Shown here: piece by piece, positions 1,015 to 30,525 of the stretch
Position numbering within the stretch: position 1 is the first letter of the stretch
Layout: every line of letters starts with the position of its first letter
Origin: Phycisphaerae bacterium
GTDB lineage: Bacteria; Planctomycetota; Phycisphaerae; UBA1845; PWPN01
DNA: 33,466 bases
Direction of reading: 5' to 3'
NCBI GenBank assembly: GCA_018003015.1
Contig: JAGNEZ010000062.1
Location: 1 to 33,466 of the forward strand
Translations under genes and position numbers: made by a program
Notes under the pieces: generated by a model
Database searches by the model: none
Seen by the model: the letters and a program-made list of their open reading frames with translations, nothing else
What the model was told of the DNA's origin: nothing

Positions 1015-1377
1015 TCATCCCCCAGTCCCACTCGAACCCGTCAGCATCGCAGGATCGTTGTTGATTTCGATGAGCCTGTCGAGCCGGGTGATCGTCAACG
1101 TCTCGCGCACCAGCGGCTGAAGACCGCTCAACACGAATCGTTGCCCCCGCGACTTGAACTCCCGGGTGAGCTGAACCAGTCCGCCTAACGACAGGCTGGG
1201 GACGAAGCTCACTTTGGTCATGTCCAGGACCACGGCCAGTTGCGGTGATTCCGCGCCGGCCGCCGAGGTCTCGGCCCGGACGGCGGCGAGATTCTTCTCG
1301 TCGAGACTCTCGTGTAGGACCCTGACAACGACGAAATTCGGGAGCCGTTCGACGATGGTGGAAGGTGAATCCGGCAT
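1015..1377 (-). CDS. STAS-domain protein (anti-sigma-factor-antagonist-like)
   Basis: A 120-residue single STAS domain. The pattern FVPSLSLGGLVQLTREFKSR followed by LSGLQPLVRETLTITRLDRL matches the helix-strand core of SpoIIAA/RsbV-like proteins. The usual Asp-Ser-Ser phospho-site is here Pro-Ser-Leu, so one Ser is kept while the preceding Asp is Pro. Proteins of this family bind partner-switching kinases or anti-sigma factors, and phosphorylation of the Ser controls binding. The ATG at 1377 is chosen because GGAG sits 7 nt upstream; a TTG five codons earlier overlaps that site. It is the last gene of the six-gene minus-strand run, 27 nt after the PilT-like gene. A SpoIIE-type phosphatase that might act on it is encoded at 11449-12648, which is inference only. 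Confidence 0.85.
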   Translation of the reverse strand: MPDSPSTIVERLPNFVVVRVLHESLDEKNLAAVRAETSAAGAESPQLAVVLDMTKVSFVPSLSLGGLVQLTREFKSRGQRFVLSGLQPLVRETLTITRLDRLIEINNDPAMLTGSSGTGG

Positions 1378-8534: not shown

Positions 8535-10856
8535 TCAATCCTGATTCTGAATCCCATCGATACAGCCGGTCACACCAGTCCTGATGTTGGCGGCATTGCC
8601 CTCGTCGGTGTCGATGTGCATCGCCAGGCGGAAGTTCGAATCCACGCGGACGCGGACATCGCCAAATACCAGTTCGCGGTCGCCGGGCACTCGTACGCGC
8701 ACGGTGGATTTGTCCTTGACTCCGTACCGGAGCGCGTCGGCCGGTGTCATGTGGATATGACGCAGGGCGCAGATGACCCCACGGTCGAGAACAACGCTGC
8801 CGGCCGGGCCCTCGAGCGTGCAGCCGGGCGTATCGCGGATATCGCCGGATTCGCGAATGGGCGGGTGGATGCCGAGCTTGAATTGCTCGGTCATCGCAAT
8901 CTCCACCTGTGTGGCTTTGCGCGTCGGCCCCAGCACGCGCACGCGTTCGATTCGGCCCTTCGGCCCGACGATCGTGAGCTGTTCCTCGCAGGCAAACTGC
9001 CCCCGCTGCGACAGATCGCTCTGGCGGGTGAGCTGGTGGCCCTGGCCAAACAGAGCCTCCACGTGGTCCTGGCTCAGGTGGATATGGTGGGCGGAAATCT
9101 CGATGAGGACCGGTTCGCCCCGCTGAGCTTCGAATACGCGCGTCAGGTAGGAGCGACTCAGGGCCCGCAACGTCTCGCGGGCGATCATCCGCTCCTCATC
9201 CGTCGGAACGACGAGCACGGTAACCCTGGAATCGTTCGTCGAGATACGACATACTTCGTCGAAGCCACGGGCTTCGCGATTCCGTACCTCATCAAGCTGG
9301 ATGCCCATGCACTCCAGGCCCTGCAACGCCAGAGACCGCACCCCCGCGCTGCCCTGCCCGATGCCGCCGGTGAAGATCAACACGTCCAGCCCGCCCATGG
9401 CCGCCAGATAGGCCCCGATGTACTTGCGGACCCGATAGCAGAACGCCTTCAGCGCCACCAGCGCCCGGGCGTCGCCCGCATCGGCGGCGCGCTCGACTTC
9501 GCGCATGTCACTGGAGACACCCGAGAGGCCCAGCAGGCCGCTGCGCTTGTTCAGCAGTTCATCGACCTGGGCATCGTCGAGGCCCGCCGCTCGCCGCAGG
9601 TACGAGATCGCTCCCGGATCGAGATCGCCGCAGCGCGTGCCCATGATGAGCCCCTCGCCAGGCGTAAACCCCATGGACGTATCCACCGACCGGCCATGGT
9701 CCACCGCACACAGCGAGGCACCATTGCCGAGGTGGCAACTGACGATCTCCAGTTCGTTGACGCGCTTCTGGAGGTACTGGGCGGCGCGCAGAACGACGTA
9801 GGAATGAGAGCTTCCGTGAAAACCGTACCGGCGCACGCCCTTCTGCTGGTAGTGCTCGTACGGAAGACCATACAGATACGCGTACGACGGCAGGGTGTGA
9901 TGAAACGCCGTGTCGAACACGGCGACGTGGGGCACCGACGGAAACACCTGCATGGCCTCGCGAATACCGGCCACGTTGACCGGATTGTGAAGCGGCGCGA
10001 GCGGACTCAGAGACTCGATCTCCGTGAGCACTCCCTCCTCCACAACCACCGCTTCGGAGAACCGTTCGCCCCCATGCACCACGCGATGACCCACGACGCT
10101 GATGTCCGAAGCCTCCCGAATCACGCCTGTCTGAGGCGCTGACAGCTCGCTCAGCATCGCGCGGAAGGCATCGCCGTATCCCCCCTTCGGCAACTCTCGC
10201 TTCACTTCGCCTCCGGGGCCGCGATGCACCAGGCAGGTACCGCCGGCTCCGATACGTTCCACCTGGCCGCGGGCCGTATTGGATTCTTTGGCCGTGTCGA
10301 AGAAGGTGTACTTGAGCGAGGAGGAACCGCTGTTGACCACGAGGATCTTCTCCGGCCGCTCGCCCTTGAGGCGCAGGCCGTACGGATCGTCGCTTTGGCG
10401 GAAGGCCGCGGCCGCCTTGGCCGGGTCGGCCATGACCTGCTTGAACCGCTCAGCAATGGTCTTGGAAATGTACTGGACGGCGCGGGGGTCGGTCATGATG
10501 GCGGACTGGAAGACGGTGACCGGGATGCGCAGCACGCGACAGCGGGTCTCGGCGATGAAGTCGGCCATGGTCTTGTCGCCGCTCATCAAGGCCATCTCGC
10601 CGAACGTATCGCCGCCTTTGAACCGCCCGATGACCTGACGCCGGCCGCCGTCGCCGAGAACGGAGACCGCCAGGTCGCCCTCGAGCAGAACGCCAAGGAA
10701 GGCGGCGTCCTCGCCGAACTCAACGACGGCCTCGTTGGGCTCATACGAGGCAACACGTGATTCGCTCACCAACCGATCAAGTCGGTCGTCGGAGAAGTGC
10801 TTGCAGAGACCGACCCGCTGCCTGAGGAACTCGACAAGTTGCGGATGTGTCATCAT
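8535..10856 (-). CDS. Fusion: cyclic-nucleotide-binding-like domain + acetate kinase + PduL phosphotransacylase
   Basis: A 773-residue three-part protein. Residues about 15-140 form a cNMP-binding-like fold (FGEMALMSGD; the phosphate-contacting Arg position appears to be Thr). Residues 169-565 are a full acetate kinase: VVNSGSSSLKY, VVGHRVVHGGERF, VAVFDTAFHH, RRYGFHGSSH, CHLGNGAS, GTRCGDLDPG, FTGGIGQGS and PTDEER, so the catalytic residues are present. Residues 582-773 are a PduL-type phosphotransacylase: ISAHHIHLS, ALRHIHMTPADA and MHIDTDEGNAA carry its metal-binding His residues. Together they would convert acetyl-CoA through acetyl phosphate to acetate, making ATP, or run in reverse. Normal acetate kinases are about 400 residues and stand alone. 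The ATG at 10856 has AGAGG 9 nt upstream. It is last in a run with GNAT, SpoIIE and V4R genes. No stop or frameshift lies between the domains. Confidence 0.93.
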   Translation of the reverse strand: MMTHPQLVEFLRQRVGLCKHFSDDRLDRLVSESRVASYEPNEAVVEFGEDAAFLGVLLEGDLAVSVLGDGGRRQVIGRFKGGDTFGEMALMSGDKTMADFIAETRCRVLRIPVTVFQSAIMTDPRAVQYISKTIAERFKQVMADPAKAAAAFRQSDDPYGLRLKGERPEKILVVNSGSSSLKYTFFDTAKESNTARGQVERIGAGGTCLVHRGPGGEVKRELPKGGYGDAFRAMLSELSAPQTGVIREASDISVVGHRVVHGGERFSEAVVVEEGVLTEIESLSPLAPLHNPVNVAGIREAMQVFPSVPHVAVFDTAFHHTLPSYAYLYGLPYEHYQQKGVRRYGFHGSSHSYVVLRAAQYLQKRVNELEIVSCHLGNGASLCAVDHGRSVDTSMGFTPGEGLIMGTRCGDLDPGAISYLRRAAGLDDAQVDELLNKRSGLLGLSGVSSDMREVERAADAGDARALVALKAFCYRVRKYIGAYLAAMGGLDVLIFTGGIGQGSAGVRSLALQGLECMGIQLDEVRNREARGFDEVCRISTNDSRVTVLVVPTDEERMIARETLRALSRSYLTRVFEAQRGEPVLIEISAHHIHLSQDHVEALFGQGHQLTRQSDLSQRGQFACEEQLTIVGPKGRIERVRVLGPTRKATQVEIAMTEQFKLGIHPPIRESGDIRDTPGCTLEGPAGSVVLDRGVICALRHIHMTPADALRYGVKDKSTVRVRVPGDRELVFGDVRVRVDSNFRLAMHIDTDEGNAANIRTGVTGCIDGIQNQD

Positions 10857-10876: not shown

Positions 10877-11416
10877 CTATGGCTTGTCAGTGAGGCTCAA
10901 CGTCACGTGGATGACGTCCTCGGCTTGCGTTTCCGTCATCGGGAGCCCGCTGCGCAGGAAGACGGAGAGCATCGCCCTGTTCTTCGTAAGCACTTCCGCG
11001 TCGAACCGGCTAACGCCCTTTTCTCGTGCGATGCGGGTCAGGTGTCTCAGTAGGCACCCGGCGATTCCTAGTCCCTGGTAGTCTTCCTCGACGATGAACG
11101 CGATCTCCGCCCCGCGCGAGCCGTTCAGGTCGAAGGCCACATAGCGACCACCGCCGATGATGATCTCTCTCCCGTCGGCGTCGATCGTCACCACCAACTG
11201 GACCACGCGCTCGAAATCGACATCCGTGACGGCTTTGAGTTCCGTATCCGTGAGCGACGACTTGGCCTGGAAGAACCGAGCATAGATCGACGCGGGCTCG
11301 AGCTTGTGAAATGCCTCGATCACCGCGGCCTTGTCGGCAGGCCGGATCGCCCGAATCGTGACAGCGAGGCCGTTCTTCAATGCTTCGATCCGGGAGAAGG
11401 TCCTCACTTCAATCAT
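10877..11416 (-). CDS. GNAT acetyltransferase resembling the Pat/PatZ catalytic domain
   Basis: A 179-residue single GNAT domain. The features TIRAIRPADK, EPASIYARFF, the acetyl-CoA loop EEDYQGLGIAGCLL and EVLTKNRAMLSVFLRSGL match the acetyltransferase domain of protein-lysine acetyltransferases such as PatZ and mycobacterial Pat. Those enzymes acetylate and switch off acyl-CoA synthetases. In Mycobacterium the same domain is fused to a cNMP-binding domain. Here a cNMP-like domain sits instead on the next gene's product, 20 nt downstream, so the two proteins may share a signal (inference). The start at 11416 has AGGA 10 nt upstream. The target is unknown, and small-molecule acetylation cannot be excluded. 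Confidence 0.82.
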   Translation of the reverse strand: MIEVRTFSRIEALKNGLAVTIRAIRPADKAAVIEAFHKLEPASIYARFFQAKSSLTDTELKAVTDVDFERVVQLVVTIDADGREIIIGGGRYVAFDLNGSRGAEIAFIVEEDYQGLGIAGCLLRHLTRIAREKGVSRFDAEVLTKNRAMLSVFLRSGLPMTETQAEDVIHVTLSLTDKP

Positions 11417-11448
11417 TGCAGTCGATCCTGACGAACGACCATGATCAG

Positions 11449-12648
11449 TTACTCAAACCCCATGGCCAGAATGGAGACGTCGTCTCTGAGATGGTCATCT
11501 CCCCGCCAAGCCGCAACCGTCCGGACAAGGGATTCCACGACTTCGCTCAGGCTAAGGTGCCGACCGGCCGCGATAGCGTCGAGCAATCGTTCATCACCGA
11601 ACAACTCGCCCTGAGCGTTGGCTTCCTCGGTCAGTCCGTCTGAATGCAGAATGAGGCGATCACCTGGCTGCAGCTCAATCACCGACTCCTCGTAATCGGC
11701 GTCCTCGACCATTCCAATCGGGAAACCGGACACCTCGAAACGCTTGGGGCAACCACACGCCGGAGCCAGAATCGGGCCGGGATGCGCCGCGACGGTGAAA
11801 CGGAACCGCCGGGTGCGCACGTCCAAGAGCCCGTAGATCATCGTGAAGTAGTAGTCACCATTCGACTCCATCGGGTACAGCGAGTTCAACCGCGATGCCA
11901 CCTGTACGGGATCCACGGCCTCCGGATTGGCACCCGGACCGGCCACGAGTGACGCACTTCCTCCAGCGCGAGGGTTTAGATTCCTGGTGACGGTTACCGA
12001 GAGCAACGCCGCTGGCACGCCGTGTCCGCTTACATCCAGACAATACATGGCGATGAGATCATCATTGATCCGAACAATGTTGAGAGCGTCGCCAGCCAGC
12101 TCGTCACACGGCCGGTACGACCAAGCGAAGCTGAGTCCTTCGACGTTGGGCAGATTCTCTGGCAGCAGCGTTTGCTGCACGCGGGCAGCAGCCTCCAGAT
12201 CCCGCTTCATGCGTTGATTGGCCTGCGACAGATCCTGATTCTGCCGGTCGATCCTGGCGAAAGCCTCCCTCAACTGTTGCGTCATGCTGTTGAAGGCAGT
12301 GGAGAAACCTCCCATGAAATCAACACGTTGGCTCAGGTCGCCTCCTGCGATCTGCTGAGTCTTCCATGTCAGGTGACGCAGGTTTGCATGGAGGTTCTTG
12401 CACGACTGCAGGACGTGCATCTTGCCTGTGGGGACGCTGAAGTCGAGCTCACCTCGAGACAATGCCGACATCGCATCGGCAAGGGCGCGGTATTCAGCGA
12501 TAAAGCGGTTGGCATACTCAGCGACCTGGCTGACCTCGTTTTTCGGACAATCCTCTGGCAACACAAGCGGCTGGGGCATTTCTCCCTTCAAGACGCGGTA
12601 GAACAGTTCCGTGATTCTATCGATGTCTTCTTCCCGTGCTTCGATCAT
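11449..12648 (-). CDS. SpoIIE/RsbU-type PP2C serine phosphatase with HAMP-like N-terminus
   Basis: A 399-residue cytoplasmic protein with no transmembrane segment. Residues about 60-150 look like HAMP-type helices (ALSRGELDFSV, QIAGGDLSQRVDFMGGF), followed by a coiled linker (FARIDRQNQDLSQANQRM). The PP2C domain (about 165-399) contains YRPCDELAGDALNI, CLDVSGHGVPAALLSV and LHSDGLTEE, with RDDVSILA at the end. The GD-x-LN form of the first metal motif occurs in one SpoIIE subclass as far as I recall. Such phosphatases remove phosphate from STAS antagonists. A STAS gene lies about 10 kb away at 1015-1377, but a direct link is a guess. The gene starts 10 nt after the V4R gene, so the V4R protein is a likely input sensor. 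Confidence 0.92.
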   Translation of the reverse strand: MIEAREEDIDRITELFYRVLKGEMPQPLVLPEDCPKNEVSQVAEYANRFIAEYRALADAMSALSRGELDFSVPTGKMHVLQSCKNLHANLRHLTWKTQQIAGGDLSQRVDFMGGFSTAFNSMTQQLREAFARIDRQNQDLSQANQRMKRDLEAAARVQQTLLPENLPNVEGLSFAWSYRPCDELAGDALNIVRINDDLIAMYCLDVSGHGVPAALLSVTVTRNLNPRAGGSASLVAGPGANPEAVDPVQVASRLNSLYPMESNGDYYFTMIYGLLDVRTRRFRFTVAAHPGPILAPACGCPKRFEVSGFPIGMVEDADYEESVIELQPGDRLILHSDGLTEEANAQGELFGDERLLDAIAAGRHLSLSEVVESLVRTVAAWRGDDHLRDDVSILAMGFE

Positions 12649-12658
12649 GGAACCATCT

Positions 12659-13186
12659 CTACCACACAGCCTTTACATCGAAACGGCATACCCGATCACC
12701 CGAACACCAGCAGTCCACTTCCTTCACCCGGAACTTCCTGCCGGTGTGGGCCGAAAGCAGGCCGCTGATGAAACCTTCATCGTACGTGCAGATCCGCTCG
12801 TCACAGGCGGGCAGACCGGAGCAGTCGAGGTCCTCGGCAACGGTTAGAGTGAAAGTAAGGTTCTCCATGTCCCCTCTTTCGATTCTCAGGATGCCAATGC
12901 CCATCTCCCTGAGAACATCCTGAAGCTCGGCCACGAACTCGGCGAAGGAACCTCGCTTGGTGATCAGGTTCTCGTAGAAGTGCTTTCCAGCCAGCTCGCC
13001 GGCATCATAGAACACACGATCGGCCGCCTCCACACCATGCTGTCTGATGAGTACGTCGCGGAGAGTAAACTGCATTAGGCGGTAGACGGCCACGTGCGCC
13101 GTGAAGCCGAGATTGGGCCGTCCGGTGTCCACCTTCCCAAGCATGGCCCATTCGAAGATCGGCTCAGTTCTCTCTTCTTTAAACAT
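12659..13186 (-). CDS. V4R (4-vinyl reductase) domain sensor protein
   Basis: A 175-residue single-domain protein. The C-terminal ICTYDEGFISGLLSAHTG and VDCWCSGDRVCRFDV match the V4R family, which binds small hydrophobic molecules or acts as a sensory module in regulators. The Cys pair in CWCSGDRVC could hold a metal. The start at 13186 has GGGAGG 8 nt upstream. It is the first gene of the V4R, SpoIIE phosphatase, GNAT and acetate-kinase-fusion run, with only 10 nt before the phosphatase. This supports a sensor-plus-output pair on one transcript. The ligand is unknown. Confidence 0.85.
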   Translation of the reverse strand: MFKEERTEPIFEWAMLGKVDTGRPNLGFTAHVAVYRLMQFTLRDVLIRQHGVEAADRVFYDAGELAGKHFYENLITKRGSFAEFVAELQDVLREMGIGILRIERGDMENLTFTLTVAEDLDCSGLPACDERICTYDEGFISGLLSAHTGRKFRVKEVDCWCSGDRVCRFDVKAVW

Positions 13187-13316: not shown

Positions 13317-14738
13317 TCACGTCACCTTGTGCACCTTGAGGAAATTGGTGCCACGAGGCTGCATGGCCGGGATGCCCCCGAGGATCAAGATTGTGTCGCC
13401 CGAGGCGACGAGCTTGCGCCCCTGCAACGTGGCTTCCGCCAGGGCATTCAGGCCTTCGAACGTATCCGCCTGGCGATCGATAAGCAGCGGCCGGAGCCCC
13501 CAGACCAGGTTCAGGGCGTGATACACGCGCGGCTGATTCGTGACGGCAAAGACCGGCGAGCGCGGCCGCTCGCTGGCCACCCGTGCGGCCGTGTAGCCGC
13601 TCGCGGTCAAGACCACGATGCAGCGCGGCTTGAGCACCTGCTCGACCGTCCGAATAGCCTCCGTCAGCGCCTGGGTCTGCGTATTCCCCGTCGGCGGGTA
13701 GTTCTTGAACTCGATCTTCTCCTCCACCTCCTCGGCGATTCGGACCATCATCTCGACCGCCTGGACGGGATGAGCCCCGACGGCCGTCTCCCCTGACAAC
13801 ATCACGGCGTCGGTTCCGTCGATGATCGCATTGGCAACGTCGCTGGCCTCGGCTCGCGTCGGGCGTGCCTCCTGAATCATGCTTTCGAGCATCTGCGTGG
13901 CCGTGATGACCGGCTTGCCGCGCCGATTGCATTTCTCGATGATCTGTTTCTGGAGCAGCGGGACCTTCTCCGGGCTCATTTCCACACCCAGGTCGCCACG
14001 GGCCACCATCACGCAGTGTGTCTCTTCAACGATCTCGTCGAGATGCTCGATCGCCTGCGGTTTCTCGATCTTGGCGACGACTGGCTTGAACAGGCCTTTC
14101 TCTGCGATGAGCGACTTGAGCGTCCGGATGTCTTCCGCGCTCCGGACGAAGCTCAGCGACACCACGTCGACATTCTGGGAAAGCCCAAACTCCAGATCCT
14201 CCTTGTCCTTCGGCGTCAGCGAGGGCAAACGAAGGCGTAGATCGGGGAAGTTGACGCCCTTGCGGCTCTTCAAGGCGCCGCCCTGAATCACCCTGCATTC
14301 CACGCCGCGGCCGACGACTCGAGCGATCCGAAGTTCGAAAGCCCCGTCGGCCAACAGAACCTGCATGTCCGCCTTGGCTTCATCGGCCAGATGGGGATAG
14401 TCGATCGGGATGGTACCAGCCTGACCTTTGAAGTCGTCAAGCGGAACCAGGGTGACAACCGACCCCGGATCCAGTTGAATCTCGCCCGGCGGCGGGAGCT
14501 GCCCCACCCGGATCTTGGGCCCTTGCAGGTCCTGCAGGACGGTGACCGGCCGATCCAATTCTCGCGATGCTTCGCGCAGACAGGCGAGTGTCTTGGCGTG
14601 GTCGTCATAGCTGCCGTGCGAGAAATTGAACCGTGCCACATCCATCCCGGCCTGAATCAGTTGCCGGATGACGGCCGCCGAGTTGCTGGCCGGTCCCAAT
14701 GTCGCGACGATCTTGGTGCGGCGGATGGAAGCACTCAT
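13317..14738 (-). CDS. pyk: Pyruvate kinase
   Basis: A 473-residue protein of normal length. It transfers phosphate from phosphoenolpyruvate to ADP, the last step of glycolysis, in the cytoplasm. Motifs seen are RRTKIVATLGPAS at the N-terminus, ARFNFSHG, VAKIEKPQAIEHLDEI, VMVARGDLGVEM, ITATQMLESMI (active-site signature) and SGYTAARVASERPRSPVFAV in the C-terminal domain. The ATG at 14738 is selected because GAGGA lies 9 nt upstream and the conserved region begins a few residues later; the longer frame to 14906 adds unrelated sequence. It lies 130 nt upstream of the V4R gene on the same strand, feeding the same pyruvate/acetyl-CoA node as the acetate-kinase fusion. Confidence 0.96.
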   Translation of the reverse strand: MSASIRRTKIVATLGPASNSAAVIRQLIQAGMDVARFNFSHGSYDDHAKTLACLREASRELDRPVTVLQDLQGPKIRVGQLPPPGEIQLDPGSVVTLVPLDDFKGQAGTIPIDYPHLADEAKADMQVLLADGAFELRIARVVGRGVECRVIQGGALKSRKGVNFPDLRLRLPSLTPKDKEDLEFGLSQNVDVVSLSFVRSAEDIRTLKSLIAEKGLFKPVVAKIEKPQAIEHLDEIVEETHCVMVARGDLGVEMSPEKVPLLQKQIIEKCNRRGKPVITATQMLESMIQEARPTRAEASDVANAIIDGTDAVMLSGETAVGAHPVQAVEMMVRIAEEVEEKIEFKNYPPTGNTQTQALTEAIRTVEQVLKPRCIVVLTASGYTAARVASERPRSPVFAVTNQPRVYHALNLVWGLRPLLIDRQADTFEGLNALAEATLQGRKLVASGDTILILGGIPAMQPRGTNFLKVHKVT

Positions 14739-14859
14739 GTTCGTATCCTCAAACGCACCGCACCCCCAATCACTGCGACACTCTTGCGTGACCCGCACGT
14801 CCCCGACAATAGTCTCTCGGCACAATTCTTGACCTGCGATCCCGGCGAATGGCCGCCCG

Positions 14860-15378
14860 TCAGGATTTACGTTTGGCGGACGGAGCCTGATCGAGAATCT
14901 TGCCAATCACCAGATCAAGGCGCTTACGACGAACATCCGGAGCAGCGGTGTTGTCGAGCTTCGCTTCGGCGCTGCCCGTCCAGATCATCTTTGAATTGCT
15001 GGGAGACGAGGCGACGATGTCCAGTCGCCCTTCCAGATACATCGGCTTCGTGAAGTCGTTCACGTCCGCGCGAGGGCGTTTCCTCGCCACATAGTCGATC
15101 CAGAAATCGGGTTTGCCATTCGCCGCGACCTTCTCAAGGCCTTTCTTCGCGAGGTGAGCGTCAACGACTTCCCGGATGAGGCGATCCGCATCAGGATTCT
15201 CCGGACGTCCCTCACCGGTGGTCCGTGAGGAGTCGGGGGCCCATGCATAGGAGTGCACCTCGTCCGCGAAGCGAACGCCGGGGCCATAAACGGAACTCAC
15301 ATTCACCCATTCGCTGCATCCGGCGGCCAGGATCATGACAGCCAGGAGCGCACCATGAACGATCCGTGTCTTCCCCAT
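14860..15378 (-). CDS. DUF4136-family lipoprotein
   Basis: A 172-residue lipoprotein with signal VMILAAGC (Cys about 21). The mature part has HSYAWAPDS, GLEKVAANGKPDFWIDYVAR and a C-terminal KRLDLVIGKILDQAP, matching DUF4136, a widespread periplasmic lipoprotein family of unknown function. In such proteins the final helix and the Asp-rich pattern are conserved. The start at 15378 has GGGAGG 7 nt upstream. It lies 121 nt before the pyruvate kinase start and is not obviously part of that unit. Confidence 0.82.
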   Translation of the reverse strand: MGKTRIVHGALLAVMILAAGCSEWVNVSSVYGPGVRFADEVHSYAWAPDSSRTTGEGRPENPDADRLIREVVDAHLAKKGLEKVAANGKPDFWIDYVARKRPRADVNDFTKPMYLEGRLDIVASSPSNSKMIWTGSAEAKLDNTAAPDVRRKRLDLVIGKILDQAPSAKRKS

Positions 15379-28329: not shown

Positions 28330-29712
28330 TTGCAGATCAAGTTTCACGGCGCGGCCGGCGGCGAAGTCACCGGTTCGGCGTACCTCGTACAAACGAAGAA
28401 CGCACGGGTCCTGGTCGATGGTGGCATGTCCCAGGGTGGCCGCGCCGCCGCAGCCAAAAACCGTCCACCCGAGACCGCCCGTCGAGGCAAACTGGACGCA
28501 GTCGTTCTCACCCACGCTCATCTTGACCATACCGGGCGCCTGCCGCTGCTGGCCAAGCTGGGCTACACCGGCCCGGTCTACGCGACCCCGGCCACCAACC
28601 AATTGACCGCCCGGATCCTCCGCGATTCGGCGAGGCTGCAGCTCCAGGACGCCGAACGCGACAACCGGAAGCGCGAACGCGCCGGCGAACCGCTCTACAC
28701 GCCCGAGCACGCCGAGGCGATCATCCCGCGACTCAAGGAGGTCCCCTATCAGAAACCGGTGACCGTCGCGCCGGGCATACGCGCGTGCTGGGCCGAGGCG
28801 GGCCACATGCTCGGCTCCGCCAGCATCCAGCTGCTTGTCGAGGAGGACGGTCGCACCAAGAACGTCGTATTCTCGGGAGACCTCGGGTCCAAGGGCGCAC
28901 CCATTCTGCGTGACTACGAGCCTTTCCAGCAGGCAGACAAGGTGGTCATGGAATCGCCCTACGGCGACCATGACCACCGGCCGTTCCGCGAAACGGTGGA
29001 GGAGTTCGTCGGGATCGTGAAGCATGCTGTCGAGAACGACGGCAAGGTGCTGGTGCCCACTTTCGCCGTCGGGCGCGCCCAACTGCTCACTCTGCTGATG
29101 AGTTGGATGTTCCGAAAGGGCAAGGTCAAGCCCTTCCCGGTGTTCCTCGACAGCCCGATGGCGATCGAGGCGACGCGGATCTACACCCGCCACGTCGAGC
29201 TGTTCGACGACGACATGCGAGCCTGCATGCGCGAAGGCCTGGTACGCGACGACCTCAAGACCATGAAAGCTACTGAGTCGGCCGACGACTCCAAGGCGGT
29301 CAACGGCGTCAAGGGGCCCTGCCTGATCATGGCCGGTGCCGGCATGTGCAACGCGGGACGCATCCTGCACCACCTGCGACAGAATCTCTGGAAACCCGAG
29401 ACCCACGTCATCATCGTGGGTTATCAGGCACGGGGCTCGCTGGGACGTCTGCTGGTCGAGGGCGAGCAATTCGTGGGTATTCACGGCGAGAAGATCGCCG
29501 TGCGGGCCCAGATCCACACGCTGGGCGGATTCAGCGCCCATGCCGGCCAGACCGACCTGCTGAGCTGGTTCAGCGCCATCGCCCCGTCAAAGCCGCGTGT
29601 GATCGTGGCTCACGGCGAAGACGGGCCGCGCAAGACCCTGGCCAAACTCATTCAGCAGCGACACGGCCTCAAACCGACCATGCCCGCGATTGGTGATGTC
29701 ATCGAACTCTGA
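28330..29712 (+). CDS. Beta-CASP metallo-beta-lactamase-fold hydrolase (probable ribonuclease)
   Basis: A 460-residue protein of the CPSF73/YSH1-like bacterial group. The N-terminal metallo-lactamase domain has FHGAAGGEVTGSAYLV, THAHLDHTG, AGHMLGSAS and SGDLG; the beta-CASP insert has VPTFAVGRAQ and LIMAGAGMCNAGRILHHL; the final part has GGFSAHAGQTDLL and IVAHGEDGPRKTL. The metal ligands are present. Family members process or degrade RNA; the substrate here is unknown. The start is a TTG at 28330 with GGAG upstream, 2 nt after the previous stop; no ATG or GTG lies nearby that keeps the conserved N-terminus. Probably translationally coupled. Confidence 0.93.
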   Translation: MQIKFHGAAGGEVTGSAYLVQTKNARVLVDGGMSQGGRAAAAKNRPPETARRGKLDAVVLTHAHLDHTGRLPLLAKLGYTGPVYATPATNQLTARILRDSARLQLQDAERDNRKRERAGEPLYTPEHAEAIIPRLKEVPYQKPVTVAPGIRACWAEAGHMLGSASIQLLVEEDGRTKNVVFSGDLGSKGAPILRDYEPFQQADKVVMESPYGDHDHRPFRETVEEFVGIVKHAVENDGKVLVPTFAVGRAQLLTLLMSWMFRKGKVKPFPVFLDSPMAIEATRIYTRHVELFDDDMRACMREGLVRDDLKTMKATESADDSKAVNGVKGPCLIMAGAGMCNAGRILHHLRQNLWKPETHVIIVGYQARGSLGRLLVEGEQFVGIHGEKIAVRAQIHTLGGFSAHAGQTDLLSWFSAIAPSKPRVIVAHGEDGPRKTLAKLIQQRHGLKPTMPAIGDVIEL

Positions 29713-29730
29713 CCAAGACCCGAGGAGACC

Positions 29731-30525
29731 ATGGCGAAGCGACAGACCATCGATCAATGGGAACGCAGTTGGCAGAAGTACTGGGCCAAGGCCGGTACGA
29801 CCTACGAGTTGCCCCCCGAGCGCGCAGAAGAACGTAACTTCCTCATGCAGACGCGCACGCCTGCGGCGGAGAAAGCCCGCCTGCGACGCATTCAGGCCGA
29901 GTTCAAACGCGGATTCGGCCGGTTGCACAAGCTCGGCCCGGCGGTCACCGTCTTCGGCTCGGCTCGCTTCAACGACGGCCATCGCTACTACAAGATGGCC
30001 GTCGACGTCGGTCAGGAGCTGGCCAAGGCCGGCTTCGCGGTCCTGACCGGAGGCGGCCCCGGCATTATGGAAGCGGCGAACCGCGGCTCTCACGAGGCCG
30101 GCGGCACCTCGATCGGCTTGAACATCATCCTGCCGTTCGAACAGGAGCCGAACCCGTACGTGGACGAGAGTATCGAGTTCCACTACTTCTTCGTCCGCAA
30201 AGTGGTGCTGGTGAAATATTCCTGCGCATTCGTGATCATGCCCGGCGGTTTGGGGACGCTCGACGAGATGTACGAGGCCGGAACTCTCATCCAGTGCCAC
30301 AAGATCGGCCCCTTCCCGGTGATCGGTATGGGCAGGAGCTTCTGGCAACCCCTGAAGCCGTTCACACGGCACCAGATCCGGGCCGGCGCGGTCGGCAAGG
30401 AGGAACTGGGCTTCGTGCGCGTAACCGATTCGCCGCAGGAGGCCGTCGATCTCATCGTGCGCAGCCAGCCGCCGGCCCTGCGCGCCCGGCTCAAACCGAT
30501 AGCGTCCGGCAAGAACCGCAAATGA
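29731..30525 (+). CDS. LOG-family (TIGR00730) protein
   Basis: A 264-residue protein with a Rossmann-like fold. The signature motifs are GGGPGIMEAANRG and PGGLGTLDEMYEA, as in LONELY GUY phosphoribohydrolases and related nucleotide-binding proteins. Family enzymes remove ribose 5-phosphate from nucleoside monophosphates; many bacterial members have other or unknown roles. The N-terminal 60 residues (WERSWQKYWAKAGTTYEL) are an extra charged segment before the conserved VTVFGSAR. AGGAG lies a few nt before the ATG, and it follows the beta-CASP gene by 18 nt. Confidence 0.9.
   Translation: MAKRQTIDQWERSWQKYWAKAGTTYELPPERAEERNFLMQTRTPAAEKARLRRIQAEFKRGFGRLHKLGPAVTVFGSARFNDGHRYYKMAVDVGQELAKAGFAVLTGGGPGIMEAANRGSHEAGGTSIGLNIILPFEQEPNPYVDESIEFHYFFVRKVVLVKYSCAFVIMPGGLGTLDEMYEAGTLIQCHKIGPFPVIGMGRSFWQPLKPFTRHQIRAGAVGKEELGFVRVTDSPQEAVDLIVRSQPPALRARLKPIASGKNRK

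Follow-up and report, generated by a model that had tools for sequence, protein, structure and literature searches.

The window, by which we mean the whole 33,466-nucleotide stretch analysed here, is the entire contig C62 of a 6.86-Mb genome in 144 contigs (G000). Its minus strand carries a row of four genes, which encode, in order, a V4R protein, a SpoIIE phosphatase, a Pat-like GNAT, and a cNMP-AckA-PduL fusion (Table 1). Successive genes are separated by 10, 32, and 20 nt. All of the ORFs are located where the initial annotation had placed these four consecutive genes, and their domains were confirmed by Pfam. The last product, described there as an acetate-kinase fusion, does contain an acetate kinase domain, but is more exactly a triple fusion of cNMP, Acetate_kinase, and PTAC/PduL domains. 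A pattern scan for a sigma-70-type promoter and a minus-strand terminator found neither. The row probably forms one transcription unit.

Table 1. Features of the gene row and of related genes in the window.
Feature	Position	Strand	Basis or remark
V4R sensor protein, 175 aa	12659..13186	-	Pfam V4R E=3e-14
SpoIIE/PPM-type phosphatase, 399 aa	11449..12648	-	Pfam SpoIIE 8e-42, HAMP 2e-6; catalytic Asp motifs; model
N-terminal helical HAMP-like module of the SpoIIE phosphatase, ~residues 1-165	12154..12648	-	Alignment and blastp against V4R-linked HK, GGDEF, and cyclase proteins
Pat-type GNAT, 179 aa	10877..11416	-	Pfam Acetyltransf_1 7e-10
cNMP-AckA-PduL triple-domain fusion, 773 aa	8535..10856	-	Pfam; homologues across the phylum
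cNMP-like domain of the fusion	10491..10748	-	Pfam cNMP_binding 1e-16; KTMA in place of the canonical phosphate-binding Arg
Acetate kinase domain of the fusion	9177..10349	-	Pfam Acetate_kinase 4e-145
PduL-type phosphotransacylase domain of the fusion	8583..9104	-	Pfam PTAC/PduL 9e-78; HHIH and RHIH motifs
Pyruvate kinase (pyk), next gene upstream, 130 nt before V4R	13317..14906	-	Kept in G001
STAS protein, Ser S61 at the anti-anti-sigma phosphosite position	1015..1377	-	Candidate SpoIIE substrate, not exclusive

The V4R protein resembles the sensor domains of phenol-responsive activators. The best Foldseek matches of its AlphaFold model (pLDDT 74.5) are the phenol-sensor domains of MopR, PoxR, and DmpR (E 1e-7), and 42 columns are invariant in 11 homologues. 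C133, E156, C159, and C167 are the zinc-site residues, and C122 is a further invariant cysteine. The zinc cysteines are spaced by 26 and 8 residues, as in DmpR (C151/C177/C185), while the zinc Glu is numbered two residues earlier in the DmpR paper than by this alignment. In MopR, PoxR, and DmpR, the V4R domain is fused to an AAA+ activator, whereas the protein described here, with ~21% identity, is separate and presumably acts in trans. The protein thereby has both the fold and the Cys/Glu/Cys/Cys zinc ligands of the phenol sensors, which supports its prediction as a small-molecule sensor with a structural zinc and favours small-molecule over redox sensing. Of the two signals proposed in the initial annotation, the hydrophobic ligand gains from the Foldseek matches, and the redox signal is weakened because three of the four invariant cysteines, plus one Glu, match the zinc site. 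A match to the NCBIfam MsvR model, which would have spoken for cysteine redox sensing, is below the cut-off; the zinc site does not account for the invariant C122.

V4R homologues are scarce, as they occur in only 12 of the 294 genomes of the phylum sample. In 10 of the 11 non-self matches, the next gene starts with the N-terminal module of the window SpoIIE protein, and in the eleventh (G322), the V4R lies inside a longer protein. The output domain behind the shared module is a histidine kinase in G427 and G533, a class III cyclase in G518, and GGDEF in G575, G483, and G543. The SpoIIE output is seen only in G000, G001, and G010, which belong to the window genus and to a second genus of the same family. 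By sequence, the V4R and the helical module at the N-terminus of the following gene product are a portable two-gene cassette, present across the phylum with its output domain swapped. We consider this exchangeable cassette to be the most interesting element of the row. The G518 protein, with its class III adenylate/guanylate cyclase output, is encoded at L091:84-1130.

How might a separate sensor control the phosphatase? The metal-binding Asp motifs of the SpoIIE protein are kept (GD 186-187, DVSGHG 205, SDG 336, and DD 389-390). In the model, the chain is all helical up to residue 161 (helices 6-20, 38-64, 78-101, and 114-161), and the PPM domain follows. The phosphatase domain (residues 123-397) is closest, at 47-49%, to SpoIIE proteins with other N-termini, and therefore the protein is a chimera. 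Baral et al. reported that the binding of a partner to such a helical linker activates RsbU, and argued that N-terminal parts are swapped among PPM phosphatases, histidine kinases, and GGDEF proteins (PMC12143880). By analogy, the V4R cassette fits this scheme. As in the RsbT-RsbU and RsbQ-RsbP pairs (PMC12143880), a partner protein is combined with a helical linker and a PPM phosphatase, and the sensory part is exchanged; in contrast to these pairs, the partner here is a V4R protein, a class III cyclase also serves as the output, and the system is known from its sequence.

The genome encodes 12 STAS proteins and 3 clear RsbW-like ATPases. One STAS gene resides on the window contig, ~10 kb from the row, and in G001 comes shortly after the row, while the RsbW-like genes are located elsewhere. 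With 12 STAS proteins in the genome, the window STAS protein was rejected as the unique substrate of the phosphatase. A gene for a T2SSE/PilT-like ATPase (1405-2562) precedes the STAS gene in the window, and the order is the same in G001.

The best NCBIfam model for the GNAT is the Mycobacterium Pat, although its 74 bits are far under the 460-bit cut-off. Its best solved matches (PDB) are all protein acetyltransferases: SlPatA, Salmonella Pat, and mycobacterial Pat. The Streptomyces structure among them was deposited as an “acyl-CoA synthetase”, and we take it to be SlPatA, with the GNAT part of the Pat enzyme as the matched region. In a small tree, the GNAT groups with SlPatA, the GNAT-first Pat of G435, and mycobacterial Pat (support 0.95). 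Glu104 is kept at the catalytic position, as is the CoA loop, Q114-G-L-G-I-A119; according to a review, the Glu at this position of GNATs is not always essential (PMC8556138). The protein therefore unites a Pat-clade sequence with the acetyl-CoA loop (QGLGIA), and its sequence, catalytic-position Glu, and CoA loop are like those of SlPatA, SePat, and MtPat. In contrast to these enzymes, it stands alone with 179 aa, without an acyl-CoA synthetase, ACT, or cNMP domain; lacking a fused cNMP domain, it is not a mycobacterial type III Pat (cNMP-GNAT). The genome also encodes one AcsA above the cut-off, with a PKTRSGKIMRR motif that makes it a candidate target of the GNAT, and one sirtuin (SIR2). 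The Pat-like nature assigned in the initial annotation is thus borne out by the solved matches and by the presence of an AcsA with PKTRSGK and a sirtuin in the genome.

Proteins of ~630 aa in which an acetyl-CoA hydrolase/transferase carries a Pat-like GNAT at its C-terminus abound in the class (~120 of 298 class genomes), and G000 also has one at C48:37269-39158 (L069:4270-6159). In these proteins, a homologous GNAT is likewise linked to an acetate/acetyl-CoA enzyme, but is covalently joined to it, whereas the window GNAT is separate. A literature search on such acetyl-CoA hydrolase-GNAT fusions found no account.

The nearest relatives of the cNMP-AckA-PduL fusion are those at L111 (83%) and L110 (77%), both in Planctomycetota MAGs, and we accordingly regard the host of the window as a planctomycete. 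As compared to the pathway of AckA with a PduL phosphotransacylase, both enzymes are complete in sequence, but here share a single polypeptide with a preceding cNMP-like domain; a literature search found no published account of such a fusion. In CRP, E72 and R82 are the Glu and Arg of the phosphate-binding cassette. The Arg is replaced in 14 of 14 fusions, while the Glu is kept in nearly all, and the binding of cAMP in the usual mode is therefore doubtful. The initial annotation had suggested a relocation of the cNMP domain, with the acetyltransferase as its source and the kinase as its new place. This transfer from Pat was rejected, because the best 60 PDB matches of the domain are CRP-, PKA-, and channel-type, with no Pat among the matches listed, and because the triple fusion is found phylum-wide without an adjoining GNAT. 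Triple fusions are encoded in the window, at G000:C1, and at L101-L108, L110, and L111, and two-domain AckA-PduL forms are present in G562 and G436. G000 also has separate pduL/ackA genes at C18, besides its two full fusion copies.

Next, we compared the gene order with that of relatives. All four genes occur in order in the window genome only. In the congener G001, the succession of genes is again pyk, V4R (94%), SpoIIE (93%), and GNAT (73%), and the intergenic sequences are nearly identical, while the fusion is cut to ~66 residues, an N-terminal remnant still located after the GNAT. The remnant is followed by the T2SSE and STAS genes, which in the window lie some 8-9 kb further downstream. 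In G010, the V4R-SpoIIE pair (90/82%) sits at a contig end and adjoins a sigma-54 activator gene, not pyk. Among 61 close relatives, this V4R is found in G000, G001, and G010, and is absent from the other 58. No GNAT, V4R, or SpoIIE gene resides beside the nearest fusion relatives, L110 and L111; a GNAT next to the fusion was not found outside this genus, and the V4R-SpoIIE pair has no recurrent link to acetate genes. Conservation of the order therefore extends to V4R-SpoIIE-GNAT, which is kept in G001, but not to the four-gene operon, which is conserved in no relative. Over a divergence of ~0.7 synonymous substitutions per site, as measured in the flanking genes, V4R, SpoIIE, and GNAT have retained their order and spacing. 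Since this order, these gaps, and the near-identical intergenic sequence recur in G001, with dN/dS of 0.09-0.25 between G000 and G001, the arrangement is beyond chance. The assembly that contains the window also includes C139, a 3.9-kb contig on which GNAT residues 71-178, fusion residues 1-105, and pieces of downstream genes are joined in a mosaic relic; positions 474-1883 of this locus (L036) combine several window stretches, with 84-92% identity and internal deletions, and represent either a relic copy or a contaminating strain.

As the gene orders of the relatives differ, the four-gene row consists of known parts that were put together at the genus level, with the fusion as its unstable last gene. 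From the comparison, the row looks less like one fixed circuit than like two separable units that came together in one genus. Is there a sign that the last two genes work together? In one pairwise comparison of G000 and G001 (NG86), the dN/dS of the GNAT is 0.25, as compared to 0.07-0.10 for pyk, V4R, and SpoIIE; the YN00 dS of this pair is saturated and unreliable for pyk and the GNAT. The GNAT seems to be still under purifying selection, yet relaxed or adapting, in a pair where G001 has lost the fusion, consistent with a link between the GNAT and the fusion. This single comparison is the only sign of their functional coupling.

We propose, with about evenly balanced confidence, that the row is one transcription unit built of two functional units: a V4R-SpoIIE split receptor and a GNAT-fusion metabolic unit. 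The proposal starts from the directly observed domains, gene order, cassette swapping, Pat-type sequence, and zinc-site conservation. In the first unit, the V4R protein would bind a small hydrophobic molecule and act in trans, through a putative contact, on the helical HAMP-like/coiled-coil N-terminus of the SpoIIE protein. This would alter the SpoIIE dimer state, and thereby the phosphatase activity. The phosphatase would most likely dephosphorylate a STAS anti-anti-sigma protein, leading to a change in transcription. In the second unit, the Pat-type GNAT probably acetylates the acetyl-CoA synthetase AcsA, which would shut acetate activation, while the AckA-PduL fusion would meanwhile convert acetyl-CoA to acetate and ATP. 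With AcsA shut off while AckA-PduL makes acetate, a futile cycle would therefore be avoided. Against AcsA as the sole reading, the substrates of the GNAT could be many proteins. Beyond shared expression, any signal from the first unit to the second is hypothetical. If functional, the GNAT-fusion neighbourhood would link acetate overflow to the reversible acetylation of lysines, in a group for which we found little literature on either topic.

A somewhat unlikely alternative is that the genes are neighbours without a shared signal path: the V4R-SpoIIE pair would run a general stress regulon via STAS, and only co-transcription would join the GNAT and the fusion. The 12 STAS proteins and RsbW-like kinases, and the same-contig STAS gene that in G001 follows shortly after the row, are consistent with this alternative, as is the distinct synonymous divergence of the pair. 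At four-fold sites, G000 and G001 diverge by 0.23 in V4R plus SpoIIE and by 0.36-0.42 in pyk, GNAT, and T2SSE (p=3e-5), as would be expected from a separate history of the pair, which also speaks for the two-unit proposal; a constraint on codon usage could instead account for the lower value. However, V4R, SpoIIE, and GNAT have stayed unseparated across the synonymous divergence of the flanking genes given above, which speaks against this alternative.

It is unlikely that the window fusion is a redundant copy, decaying as in G001, with its paralogue on G000:C1 as the main enzyme. This second full-length fusion (C1:197173-199473) is 72% identical and has orthologues in G001 and G010, and two truncated versions of the window-type fusion exist, in G001 and C139. 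The window fusion is nevertheless full length, 83% identical to that at L111, and keeps its active-site motifs. We regard as rather improbable that the V4R proteins, together with a common helical docking module, form a Planctomycetota two-gene receptor family with various outputs, of which the phosphatase version was recruited in this genus to control the Pat acetyltransferase and AckA-PduL. Finally, the single wired module of the initial annotation, in which SpoIIE relays a V4R signal to both the GNAT and the fusion enzyme to set the acetyl-CoA/acetate flux, agrees with the common strand, the tiny gaps, the V4R-SpoIIE-GNAT order with the N-terminal fusion remnant in G001, and the relaxed GNAT constraint in that genome without the full fusion, but is hardly probable, as the full order occurs in one genome, the fusion is reduced to ~66 residues in the only congener and ~105 in C139, V4R-SpoIIE is a separable cassette found elsewhere without pyk, the nearest relatives of the fusion stand without the other three genes, and a PPM phosphatase is not known to signal to a GNAT.

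The fusion of the two-unit proposal has varied neighbours in other genomes. It lies next to a phosphoketolase gene in G409 and two genes from an acetyl-CoA hydrolase-GNAT fusion in G341. A different pyruvate kinase gene is directly upstream of the fusion orthologue at L111 (L111:7467-8891; product 41% identical to that of the window), and pyruvate kinase is thus found near the fusion twice. The window also carries beta-CASP nuclease and LOG/lysine-decarboxylase-like genes at 28330-30525. A beta-CASP nuclease gene adjoins the fusion gene in G010 (L035:9651-11057), and a LOG/lysine-decarboxylase-like gene adjoins the fusion genes in G454/G513 (L101:5631-6407; L104:9324-10100).
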